From Pseudonocardia sp. EC080619-01 (GTDB lineage Bacteria > Actinomycetota > Actinomycetes > Mycobacteriales > Pseudonocardiaceae): 64,000 nt of DNA. A program made the position numbers and the translations under genes. A model generated the notes under the pieces. The model did not search any database, was not told the DNA's origin, and was given only the letters and a program-made list of their open reading frames with translations. The DNA is taken from the NCBI RefSeq assembly GCF_001420995.1, contig NZ_CP012185.1:124001-188000 (forward strand), in the 5' to 3' direction. Shown in pieces: positions 33,532 to 62,590 of this stretch (position 1 is the first letter of the stretch; each line of letters opens with the position of its first letter).

Positions 33532-33661
33532 CGAGGTGGCCCCCCGGCCAGGGGGCCACCTCGGTTCGTTCCCGCGTCGCCTCGGACCAGCACCCGAGTC
33601 GACGCCGTAGCCCCGGCGAACCGGGGCCAATCCCCAACCTGCGTAGAAGGGGCGCTTTCGC
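33532..33661 (+). ncRNA. Three-stem structured element, copy 1
   Basis: Stem I: 13-bp perfect stem (33532-33544 with 33551-33563), loop CGGCCA. Stem II: CTCGG/CCGAG (33581-33585 with 33594-33598), loop containing CCAGCAC. Then GACGCCGTAG. Stem III: CCCCGG/CCGGGG (33611-33626), loop CGAA. It closes with CTGCGTAGAAGGGGCGCTTT plus CGC (33639-33661), directly abutting the GTG start of the next gene. Copy 2 (48791-48918) keeps this layout with different but complementary stem bases, and copy 3 (62460-62590) is partial. Stem I alone could be a terminator for the preceding gene. RNA versus single-stranded DNA function is unresolved. Confidence 0.5.
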
Positions 33662-35152
33662 GTGTCCAGGGTACCTCCTGGGCCGGAAGCCGACCATGAC
33701 AGACACGGGGCGATTTCGTCGTGCCCGGATCCGGGCCGCTCGCCAGCAACGGGCACCGGATTCTGCGTGCACTGCTACGCGCACGGCGTGTTCACCTTGG
33801 CCTCCGGCCCCTCCGAGTTCTGTGTGCTCCACACCTATCCCTCAACGGAACCCGCCACCACGACCACCAGCGAGACCGTTGGCGGCATCCGCGCCGTCAC
33901 CGCGCCCCGGCGTACCCCACGCGGACGGGCCGCCCGCGCCCACGGCGCGACCGCCGGCCCCGGCAGGGCCCGGCGAGTGCTCCCTCCGAGCGCGCGGGCG
34001 CGGGCACGGGGCCGCGCCCGCGCCCGCATCCGCCACACACACGGCTTCGGCCCGCCTCCCGAGTGGAACCAGATCGTCCGGCCCGAGTGGCGGGTGCTGT
34101 CCTCGCAACGTGAGGCGCTCGAGCACGTCGCGCACCTCGTCGACGACGAGGACTGGCGACGAGACAAGCGAGGCAGCTGGTCGGCGATCCTGCACCGCCT
34201 GATCTGTCACATGGACTGGGACACCGGCCTGATCAGCGGCCTAACCGTCGACCGTCTCGCGCGCGCCGGCGCCCGCGCTCCCCGCACCGTCAGCCGGGTA
34301 CTGGCCTGGGCCCGCGAGCGAGGTCTGCTCGTGGTCATCGAACCCGGCGCCGGCGCAGATTTCCTCGGAACCGAGTCCGGCCGTGCCCCGACCTATGCCC
34401 TCGTCATCCACGAACCGATGCCTCGCCTCGCCTCGCCCGAACCGGGCCCGGCGGCCTCCGGCGACACCTCGGATGAGTCTGCTGTGGATGGAAGTGGCGA
34501 CCTCCCCTCTTCTTACGAGACATATCAACCCTTGACCGACGCACAGTGGCCTAACACAGCAACCGTCGCCCACGTCGACACCGAGACCCGGTGGCACCCC
34601 GACGACATCGCCGACACCGTCTCGACCCGTCATCAAGCGACCCTGGCGTTGGCGCAGCGCCTCGGCCTCGGCCTCGGCCTCGGAAACCGAACCGGGGTCT
34701 CGATCGAGATCTGGCGCCTACGCGCCCTGCTCAGGCCGTGGTGGGACGCCGGTGCCACGGTCGCCGGCGTCGTTCATGCGCTCGAGTACCACCCCGACCG
34801 GCCCGGCCATCGGCGTGGCCCGGTCACCAACGGTGCTCGGGATCCGCTGCGGATCCTCGGTGCCCGTCTACGCCCCTGGAGACACCGTCTCCACGAGATC
34901 CCCGCCGTGCAGGCCGGTCGGATGCGCCGCTCCGGTGTCGGAGCTCCGACACAACAACCGGCACCCCAGCCCGGCACCACCGAACATGGCCCGCCCTCTG
35001 GGGTTACTCCTCGCCCGGCTCCGGCACGCCGCGAGGTTCGCCGGGCCGCCCGGAACACGGTCGACGCGCACCTCCACGCCCTGCGTGACGCCCGCGACCA
35101 CACCCGTGCCGACACCCGACCCCTTCGACACCGACCGGATCGAAGGCGGTAG
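33662..35152 (+). CDS. Putative plasmid replication-associated winged-helix protein
   Basis: A 496-residue protein, weakly recognised. The N-terminal part has a zinc-ribbon-like pattern (FCVHCYAHG followed by FCVLH about residues 34-57). The centre has SWSAILHRLICHMDW and GLTVDRLARAGARAPRTVSR followed by VLAWARERGLLVV, a winged helix like those in actinobacterial plasmid replication proteins. A low-complexity Leu/Gly stretch (LGLGLGLG) and an Arg-rich C-terminus follow. GTG 33662 is used because the structured element ends exactly there. It could be a second replication protein beside RepA or a transfer protein. No catalytic motif is visible. Confidence 0.55.
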   Translation: MSRVPPGPEADHDRHGAISSCPDPGRSPATGTGFCVHCYAHGVFTLASGPSEFCVLHTYPSTEPATTTTSETVGGIRAVTAPRRTPRGRAARAHGATAGPGRARRVLPPSARARARGRARARIRHTHGFGPPPEWNQIVRPEWRVLSSQREALEHVAHLVDDEDWRRDKRGSWSAILHRLICHMDWDTGLISGLTVDRLARAGARAPRTVSRVLAWARERGLLVVIEPGAGADFLGTESGRAPTYALVIHEPMPRLASPEPGPAASGDTSDESAVDGSGDLPSSYETYQPLTDAQWPNTATVAHVDTETRWHPDDIADTVSTRHQATLALAQRLGLGLGLGNRTGVSIEIWRLRALLRPWWDAGATVAGVVHALEYHPDRPGHRRGPVTNGARDPLRILGARLRPWRHRLHEIPAVQAGRMRRSGVGAPTQQPAPQPGTTEHGPPSGVTPRPAPARREVRRAARNTVDAHLHALRDARDHTRADTRPLRHRPDRRR

Positions 35153-35491
35153 CCCGATCAGACATCACTCACCGCAGACGGCGTCGAGGATCATCACCGC
35201 CGCGCTCTCGCCAGATCCCCGACGGGAGCGACCGCAGTGTCGGCCCAACACGCCTCCGAACTCCGGTGCGCCGCGTCGGCGCACCCGCGACTCCGCCGGT
35301 CGAGCACGGTCGCTCGACCGGCGGTAACCGATGCGAACTCGACCTGTACACGGCGTGGTCCGGCCGGCCGAGGGTGCGTCCCAGAAACTCCCGGGCACGC
35401 CGCCGCAGACCCGCCACCTCCTGATGCGCCCGCTACCGCCCCATCATCACCGATCAGCAGGGCCAGCACGGGACCGAGCCCACCGCCACCC
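35153..35491. other. Gap without a gene
   Basis: Convergent gap between the winged-helix gene and the aspartase gene. No supported gene or clear terminator hairpin. Confidence 0.35.
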
Positions 35492-36907
35492 TCAGGTCAT
35501 CGTGCGCCGACCGGTCAGGACGTCCGGGCGAAGCAGCGCGGCGAGCTGGTCCTCGGTCAGCGAGGTCCGCTCGCGGACCAGCTCGAGCGCGGGCCGTCCG
35601 GCGCGGTGGGCCTCGGTCGCGATCGCGCAGGCCGTCTCATAGCCGAGCGCCGGGCTCAGTGCGGTCACCAGCCCGGTCGAGCCCGCGACCAGTGCGGCCA
35701 GGTGATCACGGTTCGCCCGGATCCCCGACACACAGTGCTCGACCAAGACCGTCAGCCCCGCAGTGAGATGCGCCAGGCCGGCGCTCAGCGCGCGGGCGAT
35801 GATCGGCTCGAACGGGTTGAGCTGCAGCTGGCCGCCCTCGGCGGCGAGGGTGACCGTCACGTCGTTGCCGATGATCTCGAAGGCGATCTGGTTGACCGTC
35901 TCCGGGACGACCGGGTTGACCTTGCCGGGCATGATCGACGAACCGGCCTGGCGGGCCGGCAGCTCGATCTCGCCGAGCCCGGCCTGCGGTCCCGACGACA
36001 GCAGCCTCAGGTCGTTGCAGATCTTCGAGACCTTCACCGCGGTGCGCTTGAGGACGCCGGAGAGCTGGACGAACACCCCGACATCTTGGGTGGCCTCGAC
36101 GAGGTCGGTGGCCGAGACCAGGGTGGGAATCCCGGTGAGCACGCGCAGCTCGTCGAGCGCGGCCTCCCGGTACCCCGGCCGGGTGTTCAGGCCGGTGCCG
36201 ATCGCCGTCCCGCCGAGGTTGAGCTCGTGCAGCAGCAACCGGGCCTCGGACAGCCGGGCCTCGTCCTCGCCCAGGGTCACCGCGAACGCGCCGAGCTCCT
36301 GGCCGAGGGTCATCGGGACCGCGTCCTGCAGCTGGGTCCGCCCCATCTTGAGGACTTCGGCGAACTCGACCGCCTTGTCCTGGAACGCCGTACGGAGCCG
36401 TGCGAGCGCCGCCAGCAGCTCCCGCACGTGCGCGTCGAGGGCCAGCTTGACCGTCGTCGGGTAGACGTCATTGGTGCTCTGACCCAGATTGACGTCGTCG
36501 AGCGGATGCACGGTCGCGTAGTCCCCCCGCGGCCGGCCCAGCAACTCACACGCCCGGTTCGCGATCACCTCGTTCGCGTTCATGTTCGTCGAGGTGCCCG
36601 CACCGCCCTGGATGAGGTCCACGACGAACTGGTCGTGTAGCCGTCCCGAGCGGATCTCGGCGCAGGCGCCCGCGATCGCGCGTCCGACGGAATCGTCGAG
36701 TGCACCCACACGCATGTTCGCTGTCGCCGCGGCCTGCTTGACCGCCGCCAGCGCGTCGACCAGGTGCGGCCGCAACGCCAAGGTCTCTCCGCTGATCGGG
36801 AAGTTGGCCAGCGCGCGGACCGTGTGCACGCCGTAGTAGACGTCGCCGGGGACGACGACGGTGCCGAGCATGTCGTGCTCGGTCCGTCCGGTCGTGGACG
36901 GTGTCAT
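35492..36907 (-). CDS. aspA: Aspartate ammonia-lyase (fumarase/aspartase superfamily)
   Basis: A 471-residue lyase expected to convert aspartate (or a related amino acid) to fumarate and ammonia. Visible motifs: GAGTSTNMNANEVIANRA (substrate region near residue 95), STNDVYPTTVKLAL, LGGTAIGTGLNT and the superfamily signature GSSIMPGKVNPVVPE near residue 320, whose flexible Ser loop is catalytic. ATG 36907 overlaps the upstream stop (ATGA). It is the last gene of a coupled operon, so it may remove ammonia from an aspartate-type product released by the M20 enzyme. Confidence 0.87.
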   Translation of the reverse strand: MTPSTTGRTEHDMLGTVVVPGDVYYGVHTVRALANFPISGETLALRPHLVDALAAVKQAAATANMRVGALDDSVGRAIAGACAEIRSGRLHDQFVVDLIQGGAGTSTNMNANEVIANRACELLGRPRGDYATVHPLDDVNLGQSTNDVYPTTVKLALDAHVRELLAALARLRTAFQDKAVEFAEVLKMGRTQLQDAVPMTLGQELGAFAVTLGEDEARLSEARLLLHELNLGGTAIGTGLNTRPGYREAALDELRVLTGIPTLVSATDLVEATQDVGVFVQLSGVLKRTAVKVSKICNDLRLLSSGPQAGLGEIELPARQAGSSIMPGKVNPVVPETVNQIAFEIIGNDVTVTLAAEGGQLQLNPFEPIIARALSAGLAHLTAGLTVLVEHCVSGIRANRDHLAALVAGSTGLVTALSPALGYETACAIATEAHRAGRPALELVRERTSLTEDQLAALLRPDVLTGRRTMT

Positions 36908-38043
36908 GACCACTCCCCGCCCCGTGCCCGATCCACCCCGGTCCAGGCGAGCGCGAGCGCTCCGTCGAGCAGGGCCCGTTCGGCCTCGCCGCCGACGCAG
37001 TGGGCGGCGAACTCGTGCTGGTGGTTGGTCGCCGGGAGCGATCCGATGCCGATGTAGGGGTGGATGGCCGGGACGAGCTGCGACACGTTGCCCATGTCGG
37101 TCGAAGCCCGGTTCATCCGGCCGGCGAGGCTGTCCGGGGCGAACTCGCGGCCCAGCTCCAGCGCGTTGGCCCGGTAGTGCTCCAGCGTGGCGGTGTCGGT
37201 GCGGAACTCGGCGTAGGGTCGGCTCTCCGCCTCGATTTCCAGCGTGCATCCGGTGGCCAGGGCGCCCGCGGAGAAGCAGCGGGTCACCCGGGGCTCGATC
37301 TCGGCCAGCTCGGCGAGTGTCTCGGCGCGCACGTACCAGCGGCCCGACGCGGTCTCGGGGATCGCGTTGGGCGCCGTACCCGCGGACGTCACGATGCCGT
37401 GCACACGGGAGCTCGCCGGGAGCTGCTGGCGCAGCAAGCCGATGGCGACCTGGGCGACGGTGAACGCGTCGGCGGCGTTCACACCGTCCTCGGGGTAGGC
37501 CGCGGCGTGCGCCGACCGGCCGGTGTAGGAGATCCGCGAGTGGCTGACCGCGAACGGGCGGGCCTCGGCGACGTCGACCGGTCCGGGGTGGACCATCATC
37601 GCGAGATCGACGTCGGCGAACGCGCCGCGGTCGAGCAGCTCGATCTTGCCGCCGCCGCCCTCCTCGGCCGGGGTCCCGTAGACAACGACGGTCAGGCCGA
37701 GGTCGTCAGCCACCTCCGCCAGCCCGAGTGCGGCGCCGACCGAGGACGCGGCGATCAGGTTGTGTCCGCAGGCGTGGCCGAGCCCGGGCAGAGCGTCGTA
37801 CTCGGCGCAGAGCGCGATCCGCAGCGGGCCGCAGCCGTAGGTCGCTTGGAACGCAGTCTCCAGACCGAGGTAGGCGGGGGTCACGGTGAACCCGCGCCGG
37901 TTCAACAGGCCCGGGACGGTCGCGGCCGCGTGGTGCTCCTCCCAGGCGGTCTCCGGCCGGGCGTGCAGCGTGCGAGAGAGGTCGACCAGCTCGTCGGCGG
38001 CCCGTTCGACGGCGGCGCGGACCGCGGTCTTCTCACCCGTCAC
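36904..38043 (-). CDS. M20-family amidohydrolase/peptidase
   Basis: A 379-residue zinc amidohydrolase. Metal and catalytic motifs: CAEYDALPGLGHACGHN (Asp/His region about residue 78), PAEEGGGGK (catalytic Glu pair near residue 125), MMVHPG, and TNHQHEFAAHC near the C-terminus (His). A lid domain is inserted at about 170-285. Relatives cleave N-acyl amino acids, carbamoyl amino acids or peptides. Overlaps both neighbours by four bases, so its product may feed the aspartase. Confidence 0.86.
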   Translation of the reverse strand: MTGEKTAVRAAVERAADELVDLSRTLHARPETAWEEHHAAATVPGLLNRRGFTVTPAYLGLETAFQATYGCGPLRIALCAEYDALPGLGHACGHNLIAASSVGAALGLAEVADDLGLTVVVYGTPAEEGGGGKIELLDRGAFADVDLAMMVHPGPVDVAEARPFAVSHSRISYTGRSAHAAAYPEDGVNAADAFTVAQVAIGLLRQQLPASSRVHGIVTSAGTAPNAIPETASGRWYVRAETLAELAEIEPRVTRCFSAGALATGCTLEIEAESRPYAEFRTDTATLEHYRANALELGREFAPDSLAGRMNRASTDMGNVSQLVPAIHPYIGIGSLPATNHQHEFAAHCVGGEAERALLDGALALAWTGVDRARGGEWS

Positions 38044-38708
38044 CGGTCGTCACCCGGAACGCCGTAGGACGGTGCGGCTGCCGGGTCCAGCCCGCGGCGG
38101 ACGTAATCGTCGCGCTGCGGCAGCCAGATCTCGAGGGTGTCGGCGAGGTGCTCGACCGGATAGTCGGCCCAGTCGACCCGCAGGTCGGTGACCCGCCACT
38201 CAACGTCGGCGACGACGGCCAGTCCGGCCGAGTGCACGGGTCCCTCCTCGCCGCCGGCGTCGAGCCCGGCCCGCAGCGCCTCGAGCAGTCGCTGCTCGAG
38301 CTCGCCGGTCGCGGCCCCGAACGCGTCCACCATGGCCTGCGGCACGTGGGTCCCGGTCAGCATGTTCCCGGCGGCCACGCAGTCCGCGCCGACGACGGCG
38401 GCGTGCATGCCGAGCGTGTGCTTGCCGCTGAACCAGGCAGCCGTGCCGGTCGGCCCGATCGCGGTCAGCTGCCGGTAGTCCAGGTCGGTGGTCTGCGCGC
38501 CGACCTCTCTCAGCGCCCGTCCGGCGTCGCCGTGCACGGCCAGCCGGTCGAGGACGAGCCCGCCGAGGCGGGGGTCGGTGATGTTCTGCGAGCCGACGAC
38601 GCCGACGCTCGGGCGCAGATGCAGGCAACGGGCCGCGACCGCGGGGCTCGACGAGCTGACCGCCATCCCGAACCGGCCGTCGTGGCGGGCTGCGATGGAG
38701 AAGGTCAC
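38040..38708 (-). CDS. DUF1028-family protein
   Basis: A 222-residue protein of the DUF1028 family, starting VTFSIAARHDGRFGMAVSSSSPAVAARC. The conserved blocks GVVGSQNITDPRLGG, GKHTLGMHAAVVGADCVAAGNML and LDAGGEEGPVHSAGLAVV are present. The fold is thought to be Ntn-hydrolase-like; no activity is firmly established. GTG 38708 overlaps the RidA stop (GTGA), and a longer frame to 38756 is less likely. Such genes often sit beside RidA and amidohydrolases in nitrogen-compound pathways, as here. Confidence 0.82.
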   Translation of the reverse strand: MTFSIAARHDGRFGMAVSSSSPAVAARCLHLRPSVGVVGSQNITDPRLGGLVLDRLAVHGDAGRALREVGAQTTDLDYRQLTAIGPTGTAAWFSGKHTLGMHAAVVGADCVAAGNMLTGTHVPQAMVDAFGAATGELEQRLLEALRAGLDAGGEEGPVHSAGLAVVADVEWRVTDLRVDWADYPVEHLADTLEIWLPQRDDYVRRGLDPAAAPSYGVPGDDR

Positions 38709-40398: not shown

Positions 40399-40465
40399 GT
40401 CTTCCTCCGTTCGTTCGATGCGCCGGGGCCGTGACGGGCCGCCGCGTGACCCCCGGGCTCCGGTA

Positions 40466-47123: not shown

Positions 47124-47154
47124 GTGCCCTCAAAGTCGACTCAGACCGGGTAGG

Positions 47155-48065: not shown

Positions 48066-48728
48066 GATCAAGCCCAGACTTCGACCCGATCCCTTCGGGA
48101 CAGCCGTCGAGCGCTGCATGAACACCAGCACGACCCGTCGGGAGGAACCACCTCCGTCGCGACACGGCCAATCGAAGAGATCACTGCCGACCGCACACCA
48201 GAGTTCCTGTTGTCCGCCGACCGGGACCCACATCTCCGCACCCCGGAGCCTTTCAAGATCCGTCGGCAGGTGCTCCCACGTCCCTGGCCCTACAGGCGCC
48301 TCCCCGACACGACCTGCCCGGTCGGGGTCTGGCCCAGTGGGTCTACCAGCTGCCATCCACAACAGCCCGACCCCAGCTCGCTTGACACCTCGCGAGGTCC
48401 CCGGGGACGCGCACCTGCTCTGAGCAGGGGGTCGGCAGCGCTGTGGGCACTGTGGCGGTGCCGGAAACCGACATCAGACACCTTATCGACAGCCGGTGTG
48501 CAAGCCGGTCATGTCAGAGCTGCTCGCGGGCGACCTCGCCCGTGGCGATTCCGCCCGCCCCGCGCTCAGCTGGTTGCCGCTACGCCTGCATCGATCACCT
48601 CGGTCGAAGTGACGTCGACCGACGACACCCGGAGCCGGGCAACCGCGCACGGGCTCGTCCTGATCGGCGGTCAGGCGCGGCACGCAGTAGCTGCACGACT
48701 TGAGCTGACCTCTCTAATATATCAGAAA
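48066..48728. other. Gap without a recognisable gene
   Basis: Long open frames on the plus strand here have no recognisable domain. Possibly further insertion-sequence debris. The last 30 bases become sharply AT-rich (CTCTAATATATCAGAAATCG). Confidence 0.35.
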
Positions 48729-48744
48729 TCGAACAGATGTTCTT
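48729..48744. promoter_or_regulatory. LexA (SOS) box-like site, 1
   Basis: TCGAACAGATGTTCTT compared with the actinobacterial SOS consensus TCGAAC-N4-GTTCGA: the left arm is perfect and four of six right-arm bases match. It lies in an AT-rich patch just before structured element copy 2 and about 450 bases before parA. A perfect version with a nearly identical centre is at 55220. Confidence 0.4.
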
Positions 48745-48790
48745 ATATCTCAGTTATGCCAGTCAGGGCGTGGGATCCACGACACAAGAG

Positions 48791-48918
48791 TGCGGGGCGA
48801 TCCTCGGCCAAGGATCGCCCCGCAGCGATTTCGTGCACGCATCTGACCCAGCACGACCAGATGACGCCTGTCCGGGCGGACCCGGACAACAACTCCCTGC
48901 GTAGAGGAGCGCTTTCGC
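48791..48918 (+). ncRNA. Three-stem structured element, copy 2
   Basis: Stem I: 14-bp perfect stem (48791-48804 with 48811-48824), loop CGGCCA identical to copy 1. Stem II: CATCTG/CAGATG (48840-48845 with 48858-48863), loop containing CCAGCAC as in copy 1. GACGCC follows, then stem III TGTCCGGG/CCCGGACA (48869-48888), loop CGGA. It closes with CTGCGTAGAGGAGCGCTTTC plus GC (48897-48918), matching copy 1 at nearly every base. Stem bases differ from copy 1 on both sides but still pair. It ends 259 bases before parA. Confidence 0.5.
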
Positions 48919-49177
48919 AGCAGCAAGGCTACATCGCTGCGGCGCCGAGAGCGAGCGATGCGCCTGGCGACACGGCGTCGATCGGTCGCGTAGGAGTGGG
49001 TACGGTCCGCCACCGGCCCCGACAACACGGTGGCATAAACGCCGTTTACACGCTCCGCGATACCGCGCGCGGCACGCCGATAGCACACCGGAAGCACCGG
49101 CGCACGCACGTGATCTGCAAGGATGGCCCGCGATCCGAAGTACCACCCGCCGGGTGGGAAGCAGACGGGAGTTCTCC

Positions 49178-49894
49178 ATGGCGCGCGTGCACGTAATCGC
49201 CAACCAAAAGGGCGGGGTCGGCAAGACCACGGTCACCGTGAATCTCGCAGCAGTAGTCGCCGACACCCTCGGAGGGACCGCCGACTCGTCACCGGTGCTG
49301 GGGGTCTCGACCGACCCGCAGGCCTCGATGCTCGAGTGGGCTCAGCGGGTCGGCGACGAGCTGCCGTTCGACTTCGAGCAGTGCCACGACAACCCCAGAC
49401 TCCTGGGGAAGCTGCGCGAGATCCAGCAGTACTCACACATCTTCGTCGACACCCCGGGCAGTCTGGAGGACGAGTCGATTCTGCAGACCGTTCTGACCCA
49501 GGCCGACGACGTCATCGTTCCCCTGGAGCCGGAGCCGATGTCGTTCTCACCGGCCACCCGCTCCATCCAGCGCGTCATCGAACCGGCTGGGGTGCCCTGG
49601 CGGGTCCTGCTCAACAACTGGGACCCCCGCGACGGGTCCGGCGACCTCGATCAGACTCGCGAGTACGTCGCCGCCCGCCGCTGGCCGACGTTCCACACCG
49701 TGATCCGCCACTACAAGCTCCACACCCGGGCGTCGGCCGAAGGCGTCACCGTCGTCCAGTACGCCAAGAACCGGGTCGCGCTCGAAGCGCGCCAGGACTT
49801 CTTCCGGCTCGCCCTCGAAGTCCTCGGCAGCAGCGGAGAAGGCCCCCGGCACTCCACCGACGTAAACGGCGTTTACACCGAGACCGGGGAGTGA
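49178..49894 (+). CDS. parA: ParA-family partition ATPase
   Basis: A 238-residue ParA/Soj-type ATPase driving plasmid segregation. Deviant Walker A motif ANQKGGVGKTTVTVNLA at residue 7, the Asp switch in VSTDPQAS, Walker B-type HIFVDTPG near residue 90, and LLNNWDPRDG. ATG 49178 follows CGGGAG; an upstream in-frame start at 49154 would add eight residues. No N-terminal helix-turn-helix, so it is a type Ib-like small ParA that would not autorepress by itself. One parS-like site lies inside its last codons and encodes VNGVY. ParB follows after three bases. Confidence 0.9.
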   Translation: MARVHVIANQKGGVGKTTVTVNLAAVVADTLGGTADSSPVLGVSTDPQASMLEWAQRVGDELPFDFEQCHDNPRLLGKLREIQQYSHIFVDTPGSLEDESILQTVLTQADDVIVPLEPEPMSFSPATRSIQRVIEPAGVPWRVLLNNWDPRDGSGDLDQTREYVAARRWPTFHTVIRHYKLHTRASAEGVTVVQYAKNRVALEARQDFFRLALEVLGSSGEGPRHSTDVNGVYTETGE

Positions 49895-49897
49895 GCC

Positions 49898-50875
49898 GTG
49901 GGTAAGCGCGTCAACCTCGCCGAGCTCGCCAACGAAGACGTACCCGGCGACTACACCCCGCCGCCCCCACCGGAGCCCACCCCCATCCGGGGTAGTGGAC
50001 CGACCGCGGTCCCCGCCCCGGCCGCCGCCCCCACTCCGGAACCGGGGCCCGAGACCTCCATGCTCACGGTCACCGAGATCGTGGCCAACCCGCTCAACCA
50101 GCGCGCCGTCGACGACATGGACGACGCGGACTTCTACGAGCTCGTCTCCACCATCCGCGGTCATGGCGTCCTGCAGCCGATCGTGGTGTGCTCTGCGTCT
50201 GCGTTCCTGAGCCGCTACCCCGGACACGAGAGCGACCTCAAAGACGCGCGGTGGGTGGCGCTGATCGGTAACCGACGGCTGCGGGCCGCCGCCGTCGCCG
50301 GCCTGACCCAGATGCCGGCGCTGATCAATGACGACCGCGTCGCCTCGATGTACGAGGTCATGCTCGTCGAGAACAGCCACCGCAAGGCGCTCGGACCCCT
50401 GCACGAAGCTGAGGCGATGCAGCGGCTGCTCTCCGAAGCCGAGATCTCACAACGCGCACTGGCCGGTCGCATCGGCCGCACCCCGATGTACGTCAGCCAG
50501 CGAATGGCACTACTCGGCCTGATCCCCAGCCTCCGCGAGGCCCTGGAACAGGGCAGCCTCAAAGTCGAGCAAGGACGCCAGTTCGGCGGACTGCCCGAAG
50601 ACGAACAGGAAGCCATCGCCGCAGCCGGCCCGCCCTACCGCAAGCAGCCGCTCCCCGGCACCCAGACCGAGACCACCGAGATGCCACGTCGCACCCGACG
50701 CAGCATCGCGGTCTCCAGCCCCGCACGCGCGGCAGCGTCGATCCGCGAGATCTTCACCGAGACCGAACGCGCCGAGCTCATCCGATTGCTCTCCGAACTC
50801 GCCCCACCGACCCTCGCGGACCCGGAGACCGCCGGCTCCGGCAGCGCCGCGCCTCCCACCGACAGCGCCGGCTGA
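49898..50875 (+). CDS. parB: ParB-family centromere-binding protein
   Basis: A 325-residue ParB. After a Pro/Ala-rich linker (residues about 20-52) come the N-terminal CTPase-type motifs: NPLNQRAVDD, HGVLQPIVV, ALIGNRRLRAAAVAG (GxRRxRA box) and MLVENSHRKALGPLHEAEAM. The helix-turn-helix reads ISQRALAGRIGRTPMYVSQR. The C-terminal part is rich in Thr/Arg and ends with a short acidic-Ser tail. GTG 49898, preceded by the parA stop. Its target is almost certainly the GTAAACGSCGTTTAC array around it. Confidence 0.9.
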   Translation: MGKRVNLAELANEDVPGDYTPPPPPEPTPIRGSGPTAVPAPAAAPTPEPGPETSMLTVTEIVANPLNQRAVDDMDDADFYELVSTIRGHGVLQPIVVCSASAFLSRYPGHESDLKDARWVALIGNRRLRAAAVAGLTQMPALINDDRVASMYEVMLVENSHRKALGPLHEAEAMQRLLSEAEISQRALAGRIGRTPMYVSQRMALLGLIPSLREALEQGSLKVEQGRQFGGLPEDEQEAIAAAGPPYRKQPLPGTQTETTEMPRRTRRSIAVSSPARAAASIREIFTETERAELIRLLSELAPPTLADPETAGSGSAAPPTDSAG

Positions 50876-50893
50876 CCATCACCCCGACCCCTC

Positions 50894-50930
50894 GGCCCGT
50901 CGACGTAAACGCCGTTTACGTCGACGGGCC
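50894..50930. other. 37-bp perfect palindrome centred on a parS-like site
   Basis: The 15-bp site at 50905-50919 is extended by perfect arms GGCCCGTCGAC and GTCGACGGGCC to a 37-base perfect palindrome, starting 19 bases after the parB stop. It can act as a hairpin terminator for parAB and as a high-affinity ParB site at once. Confidence 0.7.
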
Positions 50931-53900
50931 GTTCTCGTCCGGTCCGCCGTCGGCGTCGACACCGCTCGACTCGAGCCGGCACCCATGGTGGGCGGTGACC
51001 ACGACTGCCCGCAGCAATCACGACCACGGCCGTAAACGCCGTTTACAAGTCAACACCGCGCAGGAGCGTCACCCGCCACACGAACCCGACGACGCCGTCG
51101 GGCGACCACCGGCAATTCGAGCCTTCAACGGGCAACACCGTAAACGGCGTTTACACCCTCAAGTGCTCCTACCGGGTCACGCAGAACCGGCAAGATCCAC
51201 CGCCTGGGCGGACCCGACAGCAGTGATGAGCTGTTCGAGATACGCCACTCACGAGCGAGTCAATCCTCTGGAGCATCGCTCCTGGTTTCGAGTCGCCAAC
51301 TCCAGACAGACGACACAGGAACCTCGACTCCAGCCTGCCTGGTCATCAGCTACCGGACAGGACACACGTCCGGTATCCCGGCGCAGGGTCGACCGGGCAC
51401 TTCGACCGATCCCGTACCGGCGCCGACCTCCAGCAACGACATGAGGACGACCAGCAACGCCGGGGCGTAAACGCCGTTTACAGTCGCGGCGCTGTCACCC
51501 CGCGGCCGGAACACGCAGGTCCGCCGCTACCGATACCGCGACACCTGAGGCCGTGCCAGGAGAAGCGGGGCCGATTAGCGGGCAGAGCCGCAGCGTCGGA
51601 AAGCGCACAGCGGACACCGGAGGTGGTCTCGCCGCCATGGGCGGCACGACACCGTCCGGGACGATTCGTCGAGCGCTCAGATCGCGCTCACCGTCCGCCA
51701 CGTCCGATTCCACCTGGCGTTGTCCGTTCGTTCGCGCCGGCGTCGTCGCTGGACCCCAAGGACCTCTGCCCGAAGCCTGGCTCGGGTGGGTGGGGTCAGC
51801 CCGGTGGGACTGTGTCCCTGGCGGCAAGTGAAGCACCGAGGCGGACACCGTATAGACCTCAGGGCTACTACTCCGTGGCCGCCTCGTCTCTCCAGCCTTG
51901 CTGGTCCGCCCCCGTGCTCACCGGTGTCTTCCGACCTGTGTATCGCGCAGCCGTAAACGGCGTTTACACACATCCTCGGACGACAGCAGATGAGGCCGAC
52001 GCAGAGGCCCGAGACCGAGCGGGTAAACGCCGTTTACACCCACGACCTCACCCCGCCCACGCGAGCGGGGGCCTCGCATACGCGGCCCGAGAGTGATACC
52101 ACCTGTCTGCGGCATCTCGAAACCTCCTGCGGGCGCTGCGTGAGCCCGACGCGGGAGAGAGCGTCCGCAGCGAGCTGGACTGCCGCCGTGTAAACGGCGT
52201 TTACAGACCTCCTCCGTGCAGCCGAGGCCCGAAGGACCGCGACGGCGGACGGGGCGGTCATAGAACAACGCGGACCGGACCACCGGCGGAGACCACCTTG
52301 TTGCCCGCTTCCCGTTCGGAGTGCGGACCACCCTGAGCCGACAGCACCATCACACCGCGCAGAGTCATCTCCTACAGCGCCCCGCACTGCCTTGTCGGCG
52401 GCCGCAGCGACGTACCGTGCGCTCACGGGTGGAGAGAAGCGTGTCCCTCCCGTCATCCATCGAGTCCGGAGCTCGTCTTATCGAAGGCGCACGGACAGAC
52501 GAAGCTCTCGTCCCGTCCCGTCCCGTCGCCGGATACGGTAAACGGCGTTTACCCCTGACCTTGGGCCGCGACGACCGTCTCCACGGCCCTGGGCATTCGA
52601 CGGGTGTAAACGGCGTTTACGGCACCTCCGGGGGCGCAGCCCGAACGCGGCACATCGCGGGCTCGGCGCCGACCCGCAGCCCGAACACCCGGTGAGGAGG
52701 AGCCCCCGATCACCGGGGGCAGGCCCAGCGGAGGGGCGGAGGCTCGGGGAGCCGGACGGAGCCCGATCACTCGGACCGCCAGCTCGGCCGGGCCAGTCGC
52801 CCGTGGTGGGGACCGGTCGCCCGTTACGGCCACAGCGCACCGAGCACACCGACCGCATGGCCATCGTGTCGGCATCCCGGATACGACGAGTACAGGGAGG
52901 CGTAAACGCCGTTTACCTCGTCGCGCTAGATCCGACACGTCGCCAGGACTCCGACGACGAGCAGCACACACGAGGACGGAAACGCCTACGAGCGGACCCA
53001 CCGCCGGGCGGACCTGCCAGTGGCCGACGAGCGCGCCTTCAGGGAGTCATCGCACCGGAGCGTCATCTGTTCGCTGACCGGAACCGGCCGCACCCCCGCG
53101 ATCACCCCCGCAGGCGGTCGCCTCCCCTCAACGCCCCACCGCCAGCCGAATCTGTCCCATCCCACGCCCACTGCTCCGCACGGATCCCACAGGCTCGCCG
53201 CCGGCGGCCCAGCGGCGCGGCCTTCGCCGGCGAGGAGCCCCGCGGACGCTGAAGCCTCGTCGTACCGCCCTCGCATCGCAGGGTGAGCCGATCCCGATCG
53301 GCGCGCGTCGGGGCACGTCGTCTGCGACCGCGGAATCGCGAGGCACCCGGCAACGATTCCCGCCCGCCCCACCGGACTCCGGCGTCGTCAGCGCGAAGTG
53401 CCGGAAGACGTGTAAACGGCGTTTACGGCTCCGGGCCGTCGCGGATCGATGGATCGGTCGGCCGGCGCACGAACTCGGGGCTCGTTGGTCACTGTGCTGA
53501 TGGGCTGCTGTCGTGGCCGTGCTGGGGAGGTTTCAGGGCGCACCCTCCACCCGGCGCCGCGTCCCCGCGCCGTAGCCAGCACGACAGCTCGAACCGGGAC
53601 GGCCCCCTCAGCGACCGGCGGCCAAGTCGACCTGGTTGACCGCGGCACACAGAAGGGCCGATCCGCCTCTCTGATGACGCGTCAGCACCGGGCGCCCGAC
53701 GCCTGGCAAGCGGCCGACACGATCTGCTGGGAGCCGCGTAGCACGGCGCAGGGCGGGCACAGCAGCGCGAACTGGGCCCGCTTCGATGGGAGGGGTAGGG
53801 GTAAACGCCGTTTACCCCCTACCCGAGGCGAGCCCACATCCTCGTAGTCACCGTCTGTCGCCCACGACCCGCTCGGTCGGCTAGACCTCGGCGCGCCGAC

Positions 53901-55107: not shown

Positions 55108-55219
55108 TGAAGACCACAGCGACGAATCGGATCTCGGCGGGCTGACAGCCGTCGCGTCACCCTCGCCGACAACCGAGCTGTATCTCGTTTACAGGTCTAT
55201 ATCTCGGATACCAACAGAG

Positions 55220-56760: not shown

Positions 56761-57909
56761 ATGAGCGCTGACCTGATCACCACCGCCCGCAACACCTCGC
56801 TCGGCGAGCTCGCCGCCATCCTCGAAGCCCAGCAGACCCGCAAGCACGACGTCGTGGTCCCGGCCGCGGCACTGCGCTGCCACCAGGGGGCACTGCACCT
56901 GCCCGAGGGCCACACCCGCCTGTCGTACTCCGGGGTCACCCGCACCGACGCCGTCCTGGCCCCGACCCGGCTCGCCGAGAACGGAGTCGCGGCCAAGCTC
57001 GACATCCCCGTCGCCTACCTGCGCCGCCTACGCGCCCACGACCTCGACCTCTACGACGCCAACATCAACGGTTGGCTCGCCCACCAGCCCCGACGCAGGT
57101 TCCTGCTGCGCAGCCTCATCGACGACGACGGCCACGGCACCCTGCGTGCGATGCTGTCGGACTCCTACGCCCCCGTCGACAACCTCGACGTCTTGACCAG
57201 CGTCCTGGCCGGCATGACCGCCGCCGGCGCCGCCGTCGACATCGCCCAGGCCGACCTCACCGAATCCCGCATGTACGTCAAGATCCGCTCCCGCGAGATC
57301 GCCGCCATGGCCCCGCGGCTGCTCGGCAACTATGTCTCACCGTTCACCGGCGCCCGCGGCGCCGACAACCCCGTCGTCTTCGCCGGGTTCGTCGTGTCCA
57401 ACTCCGAGACCGGACACGGCAAGTTCGCGATCACCCCGCAGCTCACCGTCCAGATCTGCGACAACGGCATGACCATCCCCCACCACGCCCACACCAAGAT
57501 CCACCTCGGCGGCAAGCTTCCCGACGGCGAGATCCGCTGGTCGCACGACACCCAGCAGCACGCCATGGCACTGGTGCACAAGCGTGCCCGCGACGCGGTC
57601 GCGACCTTCCTCAGCGAGGACTTCCTCACCCAGCGACTCACCGAGATCGAGAACGAGGCCACCACCGCGATCACCGACCCGGCCCCGGTCATCGAACACG
57701 TCGGAGCGAGCCTGCAGTTCAGCGAGACGGCGCGCTCGGCGATCATGGCCCGCTTCGTGCAGGGCGCGGACCTCAGCTCCGGCGGAGTCCTGCACGCCGT
57801 GACCGCCGCCGCCCAGGACCTCGACGACGCCGACGAGTCCCACGAGCTCGAAGCAGCCGGCCTGCGCGCGATGAGCACCGCAGCCGCGTTCGTCCGCCGA
57901 CGCTGCTGA
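56761..57909 (+). CDS. DUF932-family (phage/plasmid-like) protein
   Basis: A 382-residue member of the DUF932 / phage-plasmid-like family. Landmarks: LSYSGVTRTDAVLAPTRLAENGVAAKLDIPVAYLRRL, RAMLSDSYAPVDNLDVLTSVL, GFVVSNSETGHGKFAITPQL, VQICDNGMTIPHHAHTKIHLGG (each a family block, seen in order from residue 50 to 250). Function of the family is unknown; it is common on actinobacterial plasmids and phages. ATG 56761 follows GGAGG with ideal spacing. Confidence 0.82.
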   Translation: MSADLITTARNTSLGELAAILEAQQTRKHDVVVPAAALRCHQGALHLPEGHTRLSYSGVTRTDAVLAPTRLAENGVAAKLDIPVAYLRRLRAHDLDLYDANINGWLAHQPRRRFLLRSLIDDDGHGTLRAMLSDSYAPVDNLDVLTSVLAGMTAAGAAVDIAQADLTESRMYVKIRSREIAAMAPRLLGNYVSPFTGARGADNPVVFAGFVVSNSETGHGKFAITPQLTVQICDNGMTIPHHAHTKIHLGGKLPDGEIRWSHDTQQHAMALVHKRARDAVATFLSEDFLTQRLTEIENEATTAITDPAPVIEHVGASLQFSETARSAIMARFVQGADLSSGGVLHAVTAAAQDLDDADESHELEAAGLRAMSTAAAFVRRRC

Positions 57910-58051
57910 CCACCACCTGGGCCCTGGCCCACTCCGACCTCACGAACACACCCCTACCCGGGGCCGACCAGTCGACCCGCCACGACCGCAGCGGACCCGG
58001 CACGGCGCCCACATCGCCGGCCGGGCCCGCTCCGCTACGAGGGAGACCGCC

Positions 58052-58309
58052 TTGAACCATGCGACCACCCCACCCGTCACCCGCCGACTGCTGTGCACAC
58101 GCGGAGCGTTCGAGGTGACCCTGTGCCCGCTGTGCGCCGCCCTGGTCCTCACCGACGGGCTCGAGCAACACGCCCGCGTCCACGCCGCCGAGTTCGACCG
58201 TCGCCCGCGCTCGGCAATCGACCACACGCCAGGCCACGACGACGATGCTCACGCCGGACCTCGCCACCGCCGGCACGGCGGGGCCGACGGGGCGCCGACC
58301 GATCGGTGA
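58052..58309 (+). CDS. Small C2H2 zinc-finger-like plasmid protein
   Basis: An 85-residue protein with a single Cys2His2-type motif: CPLCAALVLTDGLEQHARVH (about residues 25-44). The C-terminal half is His/Asp/Arg-rich and disordered. TTG 58052 with GAGGGAG upstream is the start; ATG 58059 is out of frame. It follows the DUF932 gene and precedes a strong terminator. Function unknown. Confidence 0.55.
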   Translation: MNHATTPPVTRRLLCTRGAFEVTLCPLCAALVLTDGLEQHARVHAAEFDRRPRSAIDHTPGHDDDAHAGPRHRRHGGADGAPTDR

Positions 58310-58358
58310 ACACACCGCGACCGCCGACCACTCGCTCTCGTCTCGCGGCCGCGATCCC

Positions 58359-58395
58359 CACCGCTGCCCCGACAAACAGTGTCGGGGCAGCGGTG
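58359..58395. terminator. Strong hairpin terminator
   Basis: Sixteen-base perfect stem (CACCGCTGCCCCGACA with its complement) around loop AACAG, fifty bases downstream of the zinc-finger gene. Confidence 0.7.
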
Positions 58396-58857
58396 CAACC
58401 CGCCCCTCACCCAGAGGCCGGCCCGACCCACCGCAACGCCGGCCATGACCCGCGGCCATGGCCGTTCGTGAATCGCCCCACCCGGGCGCCGGTCTGCGTG
58501 CTGCTCGTCGGTACCGCCGAGCCCACATCGTTGTCGTCTACCTGCCGGTAAATCGAAGACGTGCAGCGCACGCCAGGCCGCCGCCCCCTCGGGCGCTCGC
58601 ACCGACCGCAGCCCCGCTCGCCCACGCCAGGAGCTCGACACCCGCCCGCAGCCCGGGCCGTCGCTGCTCGCCCGGCCGGGCCATTCACCCCCGTACGGCA
58701 CACACGTACGTCCACACCTGACAACGAGTCCGGCGAGTTCTGACCACGACGCCGCACTCGAGCCAACCGATCAGCCCCTCCCGCGCGGCCTGCCCGCAAC
58801 TCCCGCGGGCGGCAACGCCACAGACAGGCGTAAAGACCTCGACCACGGAGAACCCGT
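58396..58857. other. Gap without a gene
   Basis: Between the terminator and the start of the next plasmid operon at 58858. No supported gene or repeat. Confidence 0.35.
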
Positions 58858-59397
58858 ATGAACCCGACCGTGCACTCCGCATCCCCGCTCGAGAACCGCT
58901 TCACCACCCCGAACACTGGGGGAGTGGCAGCACTGACCAGCCTCGTCGTCCGCGTCGCCGGACACGTCCCCACCGGACTCGATCTGCGCCATGCCGGGAC
59001 CCCCGAGCAGCAACTCGGCCTCACCCTCGGCGGAGTCCTGGTCTACCTGCGCTCACACCACACCGCGCAGCTGATTGACCGCGCCTGGGCCCACGCCGCA
59101 CCGATGACCCAGTCCCTGAACCCCCACCTGGTCGGACGTCGTCGCGGAATCATGACCACCGGCCCCTGGGCGGCAACCGCCCTGGTCCGCATCGGCGGCT
59201 CCCCGCAACTGCGCGCCGCGCTGCTGCCAGCCACCGCCGGACACCACCGTCCCGCGATTCTGCGCCTCGAGCTCGGCCCGATCGCCTGGGAACTCTGCGA
59301 CGCCGCCTCCTACACCGCGCTGCGCCGAGCCTGGAACACCGCCGCGAACCTGCTGGCCACCACCGACACGCCCGCGGCCGATACCCCCGCGGCATGA
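58858..59397 (+). CDS. Hypothetical plasmid protein, first gene of the primase-polymerase operon
   Basis: A 179-residue protein without a recognised domain. It begins MNPTVHSASPLENRF and contains LGLTLGGVLVYLRSHHTAQL and a Gly/Ala-rich middle. ATG 58858 follows GGAGAACCCGT. Its stop overlaps the next start (ATGA at 59394-59397), and the next pair overlaps in the same way, so three genes to 61087 are translationally coupled. This coupling is the main support for it being real. Confidence 0.6.
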   Translation: MNPTVHSASPLENRFTTPNTGGVAALTSLVVRVAGHVPTGLDLRHAGTPEQQLGLTLGGVLVYLRSHHTAQLIDRAWAHAAPMTQSLNPHLVGRRRGIMTTGPWAATALVRIGGSPQLRAALLPATAGHHRPAILRLELGPIAWELCDAASYTALRRAWNTAANLLATTDTPAADTPAA

Positions 59398-60191
59398 CCA
59401 CACCCGACCCCTCGGGGACCGAATCCGCCCCGCCGAGCACCGACAGCGCAGGCGTCTCCGGCAGCCCCACCACGGGCCGGGGCCTCCGCCTCCCGGGCTC
59501 GGCGACCCGGCGCGACGCCACGACCCATCGGAAGGACGAGACCGTGCACATCCGCCCCACCGCGAACAGGTACTGCCCACCGAGCCCGAGCTGCGAGCCC
59601 GTACACACCCCACAAGATGCCGACCACACCTCCCGACCCACCTCCGCCCCACAGGTCCGACACCTCCAGGAACTGCGCCGGGCCGCACTCGACGCCGCCG
59701 CAGGCGGCCGACACGTCGTCGAGGTCAGCCTCTACTCGACGATCCCCGCTCTCCACGGCGAGAGGAGCTGCCGTCCCCGCGGGGTCTGCCACGCCGCCCA
59801 TCAGCACTGCGAGCAACGCGCCACCCGCGACCCCCACCAGACCCGGCGCTTGTCGAGCAGCACCGACTGCGGCGTCGGCATCGCCTGCAGCCGCGCCGGA
59901 CTCGTCGTGATCGAGGTCGACACCACGACCGCACCGGACGAGGACGGCGCCACCACCGGCCGACAGATCCTCACCCGCGTCGCCGCCCCCGGCCACGACG
60001 TCACCGACACTCACGCCGTCACCACGTCCTCGGTCATCGACGGGACGGCACGGGACACGCCGCGCTGTCATCAACGAGCCCCCTGGGGAGCCCTCGGACT
60101 CGTCGCCTCAGCGCCCCCTACGGCGCGTCAACGACGAGCAGCTACGGCTGCGACCTCACCGAGGACGAGGCCGGCGGGCGATCCCCGATGA
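59394..60191 (+). CDS. Plasmid protein with a partial primase-polymerase-like motif
   Basis: A 265-residue protein, coupled by ATGA overlaps to both neighbours. The N-terminal ~90 residues are Ser/Thr/Pro-rich. The C-terminal half contains CGVGIACSRAGLVVIEVDTT, which parallels NVGIACGPSGLVVIDLDD of the next protein, but the second catalytic Asp becomes part of EVD and the downstream SGRHLYFQ block is absent. It looks like a degenerate or repurposed copy of the Prim-Pol core. Function unknown. Confidence 0.55.
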   Translation: MTTPDPSGTESAPPSTDSAGVSGSPTTGRGLRLPGSATRRDATTHRKDETVHIRPTANRYCPPSPSCEPVHTPQDADHTSRPTSAPQVRHLQELRRAALDAAAGGRHVVEVSLYSTIPALHGERSCRPRGVCHAAHQHCEQRATRDPHQTRRLSSSTDCGVGIACSRAGLVVIEVDTTTAPDEDGATTGRQILTRVAAPGHDVTDTHAVTTSSVIDGTARDTPRCHQRAPWGALGLVASAPPTARQRRAATAATSPRTRPAGDPR

Positions 60192-61087
60192 CCGGCCGGG
60201 ACCCGTTCCTCAACGCCGCGTTGAATGCCGCCAACCGAGGGTGGGCGGTGTTCCCGCTGGTGCCGGGGCACAAGACCCCGGCAGTACGGGGCTGGGAACA
60301 ACGGGCGACGACCGACCGGCGACGGATCTACCGGTGGTGGGCCGGTGGGGCCGGGTTCAACGTCGGGATCGCCTGCGGGCCATCGGGACTGGTAGTGATC
60401 GACCTGGATGACGGTGGCGGCGACGAGGCGCCTGAGGAGTTCGCCGGGGCCGGCGGTGGAGTGGACGTGTTCGCGATGCTCGCGGCGGCGGCCGGCGCAT
60501 CGGTACCTGCTGATACCTACACGGTCTCGACTCCGTCCGGACGCCATCTGTACTTCCAGGCTCCGAGCGATCACGAGCTGCGCAACAGCGCCGGAATGCT
60601 GGGATGGCGCGTGGACACTCGCTCGGCTGGCGGCTACGTGGTCGCAGCAGGCTCCGACCGCGAGAGCGGTGCTTATCGGATCCTGCGGCAACGACCGGTG
60701 GCCGCACTACCGGAGTGGTTAAGGTGTGCGTTGACCCCGACGCCGCGGAGTCCGGGGTCGCGGCCCGGGTCCTCACCAGAGATGTCGCCACGGCGCGCGA
60801 GCGCCTACGTCCGCGCGATCATCGATGGTGAGGCGCAGACGGTGGCCGAGGCCCAGACCGGGATACGCCACGACACGCTGCTGGCCGCAGCACGTACCCT
60901 CGGGCGCCTGGTCGGCGGCGGGGAGTTGACTGTGTACCACGCCCGTACGGCACTGCGGGAGGCCGCGGCCGGGCACGTCGGCGTCGATGGCTGCACGGCC
61001 CGAGAGGTCGAGCAAACCATCGCCGATGGACTCGCATTCGGGCAGCAGCTGCCGCGCCAGATCCGCGCCACCGCACCAACTTCGTGA
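60188..61087 (+). CDS. Bifunctional DNA primase/polymerase (Prim-Pol N-terminal domain) protein
   Basis: A 299-residue archaeo-eukaryotic-type primase-polymerase protein. Landmarks in order: NRGWAVFPLVPGHKTPAVRGW (residues about 15-35), the catalytic acids in LVVIDLDDGG, STPSGRHLYFQ with the catalytic His near 115, and the third acid in WRVDTRSAGGYVVAAGS. The C-terminal ~100 residues form a helical extension (VAEAQTGIRHDTLLAAARTLG) but no helicase domain. It can supply primers or synthesis for plasmid replication. ATG 60188 overlaps the upstream stop. Confidence 0.85.
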   Translation: MTGRDPFLNAALNAANRGWAVFPLVPGHKTPAVRGWEQRATTDRRRIYRWWAGGAGFNVGIACGPSGLVVIDLDDGGGDEAPEEFAGAGGGVDVFAMLAAAAGASVPADTYTVSTPSGRHLYFQAPSDHELRNSAGMLGWRVDTRSAGGYVVAAGSDRESGAYRILRQRPVAALPEWLRCALTPTPRSPGSRPGSSPEMSPRRASAYVRAIIDGEAQTVAEAQTGIRHDTLLAAARTLGRLVGGGELTVYHARTALREAAAGHVGVDGCTAREVEQTIADGLAFGQQLPRQIRATAPTS

Positions 61088-61366
61088 CCGACCCCATCTG
61101 ACTGAGTCCCGTCTGCCGCGCGCGGACCTCCATTCCGCTCGGCGCCATCCTGCACCAGGCGCTGAACTCCAGGTCGAGGCCGGGTACTCGCCGCTCGAGG
61201 TGCTACGCGCCGCGGTCGCGCTTCCGACGCGGTGGTTCGGACTGGCCAACCGCGGCCGGATCGCCCCGGGCTACGGGCGGACCTCGTCCTCGTCGACGCA
61301 GACCCGACGACCCACATCAGCGCCACCCGCACCCGACGTCGGGTCTTGGATCGGTGGCGAGTCGGC

Positions 61367-61686
61367 ATGACCGACGACCGCCCCGCCCCGGCGGAACCGT
61401 CCCGCTCGCCGAGCACGACATGGGCCCGCATCGGCTACGGAGCGAGCCAACTGACCCGCCTGCGCGACGACCACACCGCCGCGATCGCCCTGCTGCGCGC
61501 GCGATCGAACTCGATGTCAAGCACGTCGTCACCGCCCAACTCTACGGCGTCGGCGTGGCCAACGACATAGTGCGGCAGGCACCGCGCCCCGACGCCGCCG
61601 TGGTTCTCGACCAAAGCGGTGCCGACCACGACCCCGGTGACCGTTCCCGATGCGGCTCGCCCAGCGCCCCGAACAGCTCCGCGTGA
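61367..61686 (+). pseudogene. Possible small gene with one frameshift
   Basis: From ATG 61367 the peptide reads MTDDRPAPAEPSRSPSTTW, then IGYGASQLTRLRDDHTAAIALLRA. At a GCGCGCGCG run near 61495-61502 the natural-looking sequence changes frame and continues IELDVKHVVTAQLYGVGVANDI and AAVVLDQSG to 61686. One extra GC-type base would explain it. No family recognised. The preceding gap 61088-61366 has no gene. Confidence 0.35.
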
Positions 61687-61870
61687 GCGTCGAGGACAAC
61701 CTAGGAGCTCGATTCCGCGCTCCGCTGAGATGGTGTTCGCCGAGCCGGACAGCTGGGAGTGCTCGAGTCGGTCGATAGCACCGGTGATCGCTCCGGCGAT
61801 CAACTGACAAGATCACAGGCCGCGGTCATCCTGCGCGAGGATGTTGCGTGGGCGCGCTAGTCTCGACGCT

Positions 61871-62074
61871 ATGACGCAGCAGGACCGTCGCCTGACGAGC
61901 GCGGACGGCAGCGACGACGCTGATGCTCGTGCCGACGCCGTGGTCTCACGCACGGTCGCCCGCCACGGCGCGCCGACAGTGGAGGACTACCGGGCGGTCT
62001 ACATCTCGGCTGGGCTGCCTTGGCCAGGCGACGAGGAGATTCGCCGGATCCAGCCGGTGGCCGACGCGGCGTGA
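61871..62074 (+). CDS. Small acidic hypothetical protein
   Basis: A 67-residue protein, MTQQDRRLTSADGSDDADAR then VEDYRAVYISAGLPWPGDEE. An upstream promoter-like TTGCG and TAGTCT pair ends seven bases before the ATG, which would give a leaderless transcript; this favours 61871 over an in-frame start at 61841. No family recognised. Confidence 0.45.
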   Translation: MTQQDRRLTSADGSDDADARADAVVSRTVARHGAPTVEDYRAVYISAGLPWPGDEEIRRIQPVADAA

Positions 62075-62160
62075 TCGGAGGGAAAATCCTCGACGCCTCA
62101 GCGCTGCGTCGCGATCGGCATCAACTCTGCGCGAACGGACGAGGCAAGCAGCCAGGTCTT

Positions 62161-62175
62161 GTATACCCGGTATAC
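62161..62175. other. 15-bp odd palindrome GTATACCCGGTATAC
   Basis: Perfect arms around a single central C, 86 bases after the small acidic gene. It has the same length and same GTA...TAC ends as the parS-like palindromes but a different interior. Confidence 0.5.
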
Positions 62176-62459
62176 GCAGTCTTCTGACGAGCGGTCCACT
62201 GTGGCAATTGCAGCCTCGCGACACCACCCGATGCTGCACAGTCGGTGCCGCTGGCAGGCAGAGCGGGCCTCCGATACAGCAGCAAGGAAGAAGAGACCGC
62301 AGTAGCAAGCCTGCAGTTATGACAGTATGCGCGGACTTGGTCCAGTATCGCACGAGGGGTGGGCCACGCCTCATCGATCGGCTTGTCCATGATCATTCCA
62401 CCAGGACGACATCGGTGATGGCTCCTACACGGCAACCCGAGATCTGGCGGATGGGCAAG

Positions 62460-62590
62460 ACGCGCAAAAGCGCCCATTCTTGGCAGGTTGGAAATTGGCC
62501 CCGGTTCGCCGGGCTACGGCGTCAGCTCGGGTGTACGAACGACTGATGCGAGAGCGATTCGACACGCCCCCCGGGCTAGGGGAGTCGCCT
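62460..62590 (-). ncRNA. Three-stem structured element, copy 3 (partly decayed)
   Basis: Minus-strand copy. From 62523 leftwards it reads GACGCCGTAGCCC, loop CGAA flanked by GG/CC with CCGGGG, then GGCCAAT, CCAACCTGC and GGGCGCTTTTGCGCG. Over about 60 bases it matches copy 1 (33601-33661) closely, with one C lost from stem III and changes in the final block. A weaker stem I (CGACTCCCC with GGGG and GTCG, 62560-62587) precedes it; stem II is degenerate. No clear gene follows on this strand. Confidence 0.45.

Follow-up and report, generated by a model that had tools for sequence, protein, structure and literature searches.

What does a structured element do that occurs three times within a short stretch of one linear plasmid? 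The question is raised by 64,000 nucleotides of Pseudonocardia sp. EC080619-01 (contig NZ_CP012185.1, positions 124,001 to 188,000 of the forward strand; hereafter, the window). A sequence-only reading of this DNA had described two intact elements and a partly decayed third on the opposite strand that share the order of their stems, their loops, and a 3' block, and all of these features and their positions were recovered in our analysis. Here, we propose, with a probability of roughly 80%, that the intact elements are genes for countertranscribed RNAs (ctRNAs) of about 140 nt that brake the replication of Pseudonocardia plasmids. Copy 1 (E1) precedes a Rep-like gene (rep), copy 2 (E2) is a paralogue close to parAB, and copy 3 is a decayed E1 (Table 1). 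Plus and minus strand are used relative to the element; at the window E1, rep reads plus.

How widespread are the elements? A blastn search turned up copies in 10 plasmid records, every one from Pseudonocardia and 8 of them typed as mobilizable; nine have a single element and the remaining one has three, and 3 of the 10 are assigned to a replicon cluster by PLSDB typing. The window E1 is identical in 140/140 bases to that of the linear plasmid pBCI2-1 (Pseudonocardia sp. EC080610-09). Among 62 Pseudonocardia genomes searched (E ≤ 0.01), 27 had matches, the weakest being short and partial; no contig carrying one of the 40 retrieved regions exceeds 463,583 bp, and a later, weaker copy (L155; 49 bits) was on a 1.05-Mb contig. 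A covariance-model search, as suggested by the sequence-only reading, was run on the retrieved loci and returned 61 matches over the full length, each scoring 41 bits or more. The 53 distinct copies among them, whose hosts are Pseudonocardia and near relatives, comprise 46 of the E1 type (decayed copy 3 counted here) and 7 of the E2 type. An extra sample of 12 elements from 11 loci, some of them near-identical pairs, was reached via relatives of Rep.

Selection on a folded RNA or single-stranded DNA had been suggested before because the stem bases of copies 1 and 2 differ on both arms and still pair. This holds for stems I to III, and the larger sample supports selection for the folding of a nucleic acid. 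In a MAFFT alignment of 30 sequences, which was not fitted to the structure (taken from copy 1), 93.1% of the cells pair. Changes on both sides were seen in 20 of 37 pairs, compared to a shuffle mean of 7.7 and reached by 0/500 shuffles, a control that is inflated because the sequences are related; covariation was 0.152 versus 0.041 to 0.070 with the partners slid, a comparison that favors the true structure because it was drawn from copy 1. Stems II and III are kept along with stem I. Furthermore, the folds of copies 1 and 2 beat all 200 dinucleotide shuffles (z = −4.2 and −4.8), whereas the fold of copy 3 is no better than shuffles (z = −0.6; 54/200 as good), consistent with its decay; its loop I, TAGCCC, is common to the E1 of pBCI2-2. 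A short stem IV can be added to the structure, with a compensated change to CTCC/GGAG in copy 2, and conservation extends about 50 bp farther 3' than was described before.

Which strand is the functional one? Three minus-strand features favor an antisense RNA: a −10 hexamer, a terminator, and a lean of the mismatches toward G.U. The hexamer, TANNNT, lies just 3' of GCGCTTTCGC, at offset 7 in 45 of the 53 distinct copies, at offset 8 in four, and at offset 6 in one (50/53 in total); L076 has the motif inside a tandem repeat, and it is missing in decayed copy 3 and L085. The best other offset reached 3/53, and the plus strand had 1/53 at most. The three central positions are highly variable in 22 copies of <80% identity picked from the 51 motif-bearing copies. 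In the extra sample, 11 of the 12 elements have the motif at offset 7 or 8 from a hand-set start. In L079 and L013 (offset 8), the motif has moved relative to the codons and is nonetheless kept, and 6/7 of the noncoding E2 copies retain it; therefore, it is not explained by coding. Transcription is predicted to start at GCGCTTTCGC, giving an RNA with the 5' end GCGAAAGCGC. Judged from sequence, this would be the ctRNA gene's own promoter, reading against rep.

The RNA would end at an intrinsic terminator. Stem I of E1 and its tail on the minus strand form the sole terminator-like site on either strand in 33450-33800 (0.3 expected from shuffles), and the same is true for the E2 site at 48824-48791 (minus) in 48650-49200 (0.2 expected). 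Over all copies, the minus strand was terminator-like in 40/53 and the plus strand in 8/53, a contrast that is widened because the script found no stem in 12 plus-strand and 2 minus-strand copies. The tail has more T on the minus strand in 35 copies, as many in 14, and fewer in 4. A parsimony count for stems I to III (model-fitted alignment, one loop-closing pair omitted) gave 46 changes to A.C and 26 to G.U on the plus strand; hence, read on the minus strand, the mismatches lean toward G.U. The region of E1 at 33516-33661 folds with −85.1 kcal/mol on the minus strand and −78.6 kcal/mol on the plus strand, and E2 with −72.1 and −63.9 kcal/mol, respectively; for E2, the z-scores are −4.7 (minus) and −3.6 (plus). 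The minimum free energy is lower on the minus strand in 52/53 copies and in 14/15 representatives, a gain that is partly due to composition because the flanks lean to the minus strand as well (35/53; mean of −3.5 versus −9.0). Indeed, strand composition can help both the mismatch bias and the minus-strand energies.

In our model, the ctRNA is read from rep codons 3 to 4 back across the Shine-Dalgarno (SD) sequence of rep to the stop codon of the upstream gene, so that its predicted order from the 5' end is stems IV, III, and II and then stem I with the U-rich tail as the terminator. The E1 RNA would pair with the folded rep mRNA leader over its SD sequence, block the translation of Rep, and thereby limit the plasmid copy number; the small upstream protein may be a CopG-like second brake. 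The position of E1 fits such a role: it covers the span from the upstream stop codon to the rep start, SD sequence included. An open frame of >60 codons ends 2 to 6 nt before the element in 46/46 E1 (copy 3 included) and in 0/7 E2 copies. The earlier observation that copy 1 abuts a replication-like gene applies generally: the GTG directly after the window E1 has a counterpart (GTG or ATG directly after the final CGC) in 44/46 E1 copies, the exceptions being copy 3 and L076, in which the 3' block is tandemly repeated ahead of the GTG (L076:5014-5147).

Table 1. Predicted and annotated features at the E1, E2, and copy 3 loci (positions in the window)
Feature	Position	Strand	Remark
Small upstream gene, 139 aa	33105..33524	+	Possible ribbon-helix-helix repressor; stop just ahead of stem I
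E1 element	33529..33661	+	rep mRNA leader, predicted target; carries rep SD AAGAAGGGG
Stem I of E1	33532..33563	-	Minus strand: terminator with tail TTCCTGTTTA
Stem II of E1	33574..33605		CCAGCAC in loop
Stem III of E1	33610..33627		Loop CGAA (plus), UUCG (minus)
Stem IV of E1	33632..33652		Pairs rep SD, CCCC/GGGG
Predicted ctRNA-1, ~140 nt	33520..33661	-	Start near 33661, U-rich tail near 33520; ends inferred
-10 hexamer TACCCT (TANNNT) of ctRNA-1	33668..33673	-	Within rep codons 3-4
Rep-like gene, 496 aa	33662..35152	+	GTG start; winged helix at about residues 147-251
SOS-type box GAACAGATGTTC	48731..48742		Upstream of E2
E2 element	48790..48918	+	E1 paralogue without start codon
Predicted sister RNA of E2	48780..48918	-	-10, terminator-like site, minus-strand fold
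E2 -10 hexamer TAGCCT	48926..48931	-	
First parS-like palindrome TAAACGCCGTTTA	49036..49048		Between E2 and parA
parA	49178..49894	+	
parB	49898..50875	+	
Decayed E1 copy (copy 3)	62462..62595	-	-10 lost, no rep start

Besides the qualifications attached above to the terminator counts and the folding energies, several observations weigh against ctRNA genes. An Escherichia coli-type promoter was found on neither strand of the two window regions (33450-33800 and 48650-49200), and no clear −35 element was apparent among the aligned copies. L085 has no −10 hexamer although it is folded, and the second of two E1-like elements in series at L159:2343-2930 also lacks one. The changes in stem IV lean in the opposite direction (7 to G.U and 3 to A.C), and copy 1 has its better z-score on the plus strand (−5.4 versus −3.8 on the minus strand). 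Loop I of coresident plasmids differs no more than expected by chance (3/27 pairs the same versus 3.5 expected), so that a signature of incompatibility is not apparent. Finally, the Rep-like protein has no Pfam, NCBIfam, or PHROG family match, and its structural resemblance to initiators is weak. Its AlphaFold2 model (mean pLDDT of 70) has a winged helix at about residues 147 to 251; Foldseek reported "MDR initiator" (E = 0.06), "Rep-DNA complex" (0.10), and "initiator" (0.13) among MarR regulators; no plasmid initiator was among the 50 matches listed by a second structure aligner.

That Rep is a replication initiator is, therefore, something we infer. In a tblastn search with the window protein, 41 of 42 E1 regions matched (the window's own included; weak or partial in L011, L049, and L082), and the region of copy 3 had no match. 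In pBCI2-2 (L011:6134-7930), E1 and the leading codons run in frame into an open reading frame (ORF) that matches the window Rep over residues 1 to 30 only and has a weak PHROG match to "replication initiation O-like" (E = 8e-4); an ORF with an initiator match behind the same E1 supports the idea that the usual downstream gene encodes an initiator. In G027:C1 (L049:5091-6881), the ORF that follows is of comparable size and matches the window Rep with only 42 bits. In both loci, about 22 leading codons together with the E1 unit are fused in frame to an ORF that has no (L011) or hardly any (L049) relation to the usual Rep; the Rep body seems to have been exchanged naturally beneath a shared control region.

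What, then, is the second copy for? None of the seven E2 copies is followed by a start codon, and the SD-like block is conserved. The sequence GAACRNNYGTTC, which we take to be the SOS box consensus, lies 34 to 77 bp upstream in 7/7 E2 copies (script pattern; R and Y read by eye), whereas GAACNNNNGTTC was present within up to 900 bp of 0/45 E1 copies; the density of the motif across all loci is 0.03 per kb, E2 boxes included. The strain's own genome has a single LexA match, and its lexA has TTCGAACGCATGTTTG upstream, one base off the consensus. Taken by motif, a LexA/SOS-type operator thus appears to lie near E2. Downstream of E2, parA starts at a distance of 258 to 340 nt in 5/7 cases (window copy 2, L062, L063, L064, and L085); the window distance of 258 nt agrees with the earlier placement of copy 2 upstream of parA. 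No parA match was found within 3.5 kb of E2 in L078 and L084. Fourteen exact TAAACGNCGTTTA palindromes around parAB (49036-53814) are likely a parS array; a fifteenth lies at C2:550335 on the same contig, and none was found on the genome's other contigs.

E2 would act in trans and may be a sister ctRNA or, if transcribed from the side of the SOS-type box, a decoy. To see whom it resembles, loops I and IV of each E2 were ranked against 49 E1s, and duplex energies against 45. The E1 nearest to the window E2 by loops is the window E1 (1/49); over the whole element, 7/49 E1s, the window E1 among them, are equally close or closer. By duplex energy, the pair ranks 2/45. The cognate E1 ranks first by loops for L063 and L078 and within the top 3 for L062 and L064, where plain relatedness may explain the loops because the whole element is equally close; the duplex-energy rank is 1 for L063, L064, and L078 (tied for the latter two) and 4 for L062. 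In total, five E2s are within the top 3/49 to their cognate E1, one of them across contigs; cognacy is assumed for L078 and L085, whose partner E1s are on other contigs. Loop I matches in 4/5 same-contig sets (permutation P = 0.005), three of the sets being from related plasmids. The sharing of loops suggests that the E2 RNA meets the same partner as the E1 RNA.

How might such a copy work? A tentative scenario, to which we give a low probability, is an SOS-gated E2. In undamaged cells, the E2 ctRNA, like that of E1, would restrain Rep; upon loss of LexA, plus-sense transcription coming into E2 from the SOS-type box would silence this ctRNA and produce a mimic of the rep leader, with the same loops and the same SD block and without a start codon, that titrates the ctRNA. 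If true, E2 would release replication and tie the copy number to DNA damage and the par locus.

E2 could instead be a functionless relic of a duplicated E1, which would be compatible with E1 as a ctRNA gene. In this vein, L085 has lost its −10 hexamer and resembles neither of the two E1s in its genome by loops (26 and 39 of 49 E1s at least as close; duplex-energy ranks 29 and 33). L084 matches one of its two E1s moderately (7/49 by loops; 3/45 by duplex energy) and the other not (rank 34), and the likeness in L062 and L064 is perhaps plain relatedness. We consider a relic unlikely, in view of the loop ranks of five E2s, including that of the window pair, the loop I matches within same-contig sets (with the relatedness noted), the SOS-type box in all seven copies, and the −10 hexamer in six.

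More doubtful still is a cis-regulatory leader of rep (and parA) on the plus strand, for instance one that hides the SD sequence in stem IV, with no antisense RNA involved. The location of E1 after the upstream stop codon and before the start of rep, the pairing of the SD sequence by stem IV with the compensated change in copy 2, the plus-strand z-score of copy 1, and the G.U-leaning changes of stem IV on the plus strand would all suit a leader. However, it leaves the fixed TANNNT and the terminator bias on the minus strand unexplained, and the E2 copies conserve the SD-like block, although none of the seven has a start codon. Of the 5' leader proposed in the sequence-only reading, next to a single-strand or transfer origin, the location survives, as copy 1 does lie in the leader of a replication-like gene, whereas the evidence favors an RNA from the opposite strand that targets this leader. 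A structured single-stranded or origin DNA (single-strand origin, oriV, origin of transfer [oriT], or recombination site) would go with the single element in nine of ten plasmid records and three in the tenth and with the different gene behind the pBCI2-2 element, but it is highly improbable given the fixed orientation to rep or parA, the abutting start and stop codons, the promoter and terminator signatures, and the distance of about 10 kb between the element and the mobF relaxase gene in the 26-kb pPaSha3. For an oriT, no support emerged from these analyses, none of which was aimed directly at it.

With ctRNA genes as the preferred explanation, is the system a known one? The corynebacterial plasmid pGA1 has a ctRNA against rep, an actinobacterial example that is an Rfam family. 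Rfam 15 had no match in the window at the gathering score; around E1, all matches were below the threshold. In arrangement, a close likeness is to copG-rnaII-repB of pMV158, whose 48-nt RNAII forms a single hairpin and pairs immediately ahead of an atypical start region (PMC4485353, PMC5703833). Shared by our model are a small upstream gene and rep in the same direction, an antisense RNA that spans the intergenic region from a promoter within the 5' end of rep, a terminator hairpin, and the rep translation start as the target. Unlike the single-hairpin RNA of about 48 nt, the elements described here have four or more stems and a predicted length of about 140 nt, cover the SD sequence, and have a second copy near parAB.

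In repABC plasmids such as p42d, the ctRNA gene is located between repB and repC in one operon, in the order repA-repB-ctRNA-repC (PMC3155836). A ctRNA over the leader of the initiator gene and large, low-copy plasmids with partition genes and parS would be common to both; here, however, rep precedes parAB, and the element is duplicated. RNAI of pT181 acts mainly by attenuation, and RNAI of pSK41, whose initiator has a winged helix, pairs about 100 nt upstream of the start (PMC5703833). Both share with our model an antisense RNA against the rep leader, and pSK41 also shares the winged helix, whereas the Rep described here matches initiator structures weakly. Searches of open-access literature, screened by title and beginning of abstract, yielded no copy-control system for these Pseudonocardia plasmids. 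Hence, the kind, a plasmid ctRNA, is known, and the family, its size, and the duplicate linked to par and an SOS-type box are new as far as the literature was searched. If the model holds, a family of Pseudonocardia plasmids, some of which come from ant-associated strains, gains a system for the control of copy number. With its sister copy next to parAB and an SOS-type box ahead of that copy, the system may also connect replication control to partition and DNA damage.

The assignment of the upstream gene to CopG-like, ribbon-helix-helix (RHH) repressors is weak. The window protein has a weak PHROG match to Arc-like proteins (E = 0.009), and 1 of 10 upstream proteins matched CopG_antitoxin (7e-4) and RHH_1 (0.007), both below the cutoff. 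The upstream proteins differ in their DNA-binding parts, and most end in ELPLTKAS or a variant (QEGSLTKAS in the window, 33498-33524), a tail reminiscent of a beta-clamp-binding motif.

In L062, L063, and L064, the gene order is small gene, E1, rep, E2, parA, with E1 and E2 within about 2.4 kb. In the window, about 13.6 kb separate rep from E2-parAB, and this interval holds a RepA gene along with metabolic genes; replicon fusion may have given rise to the linear plasmid.

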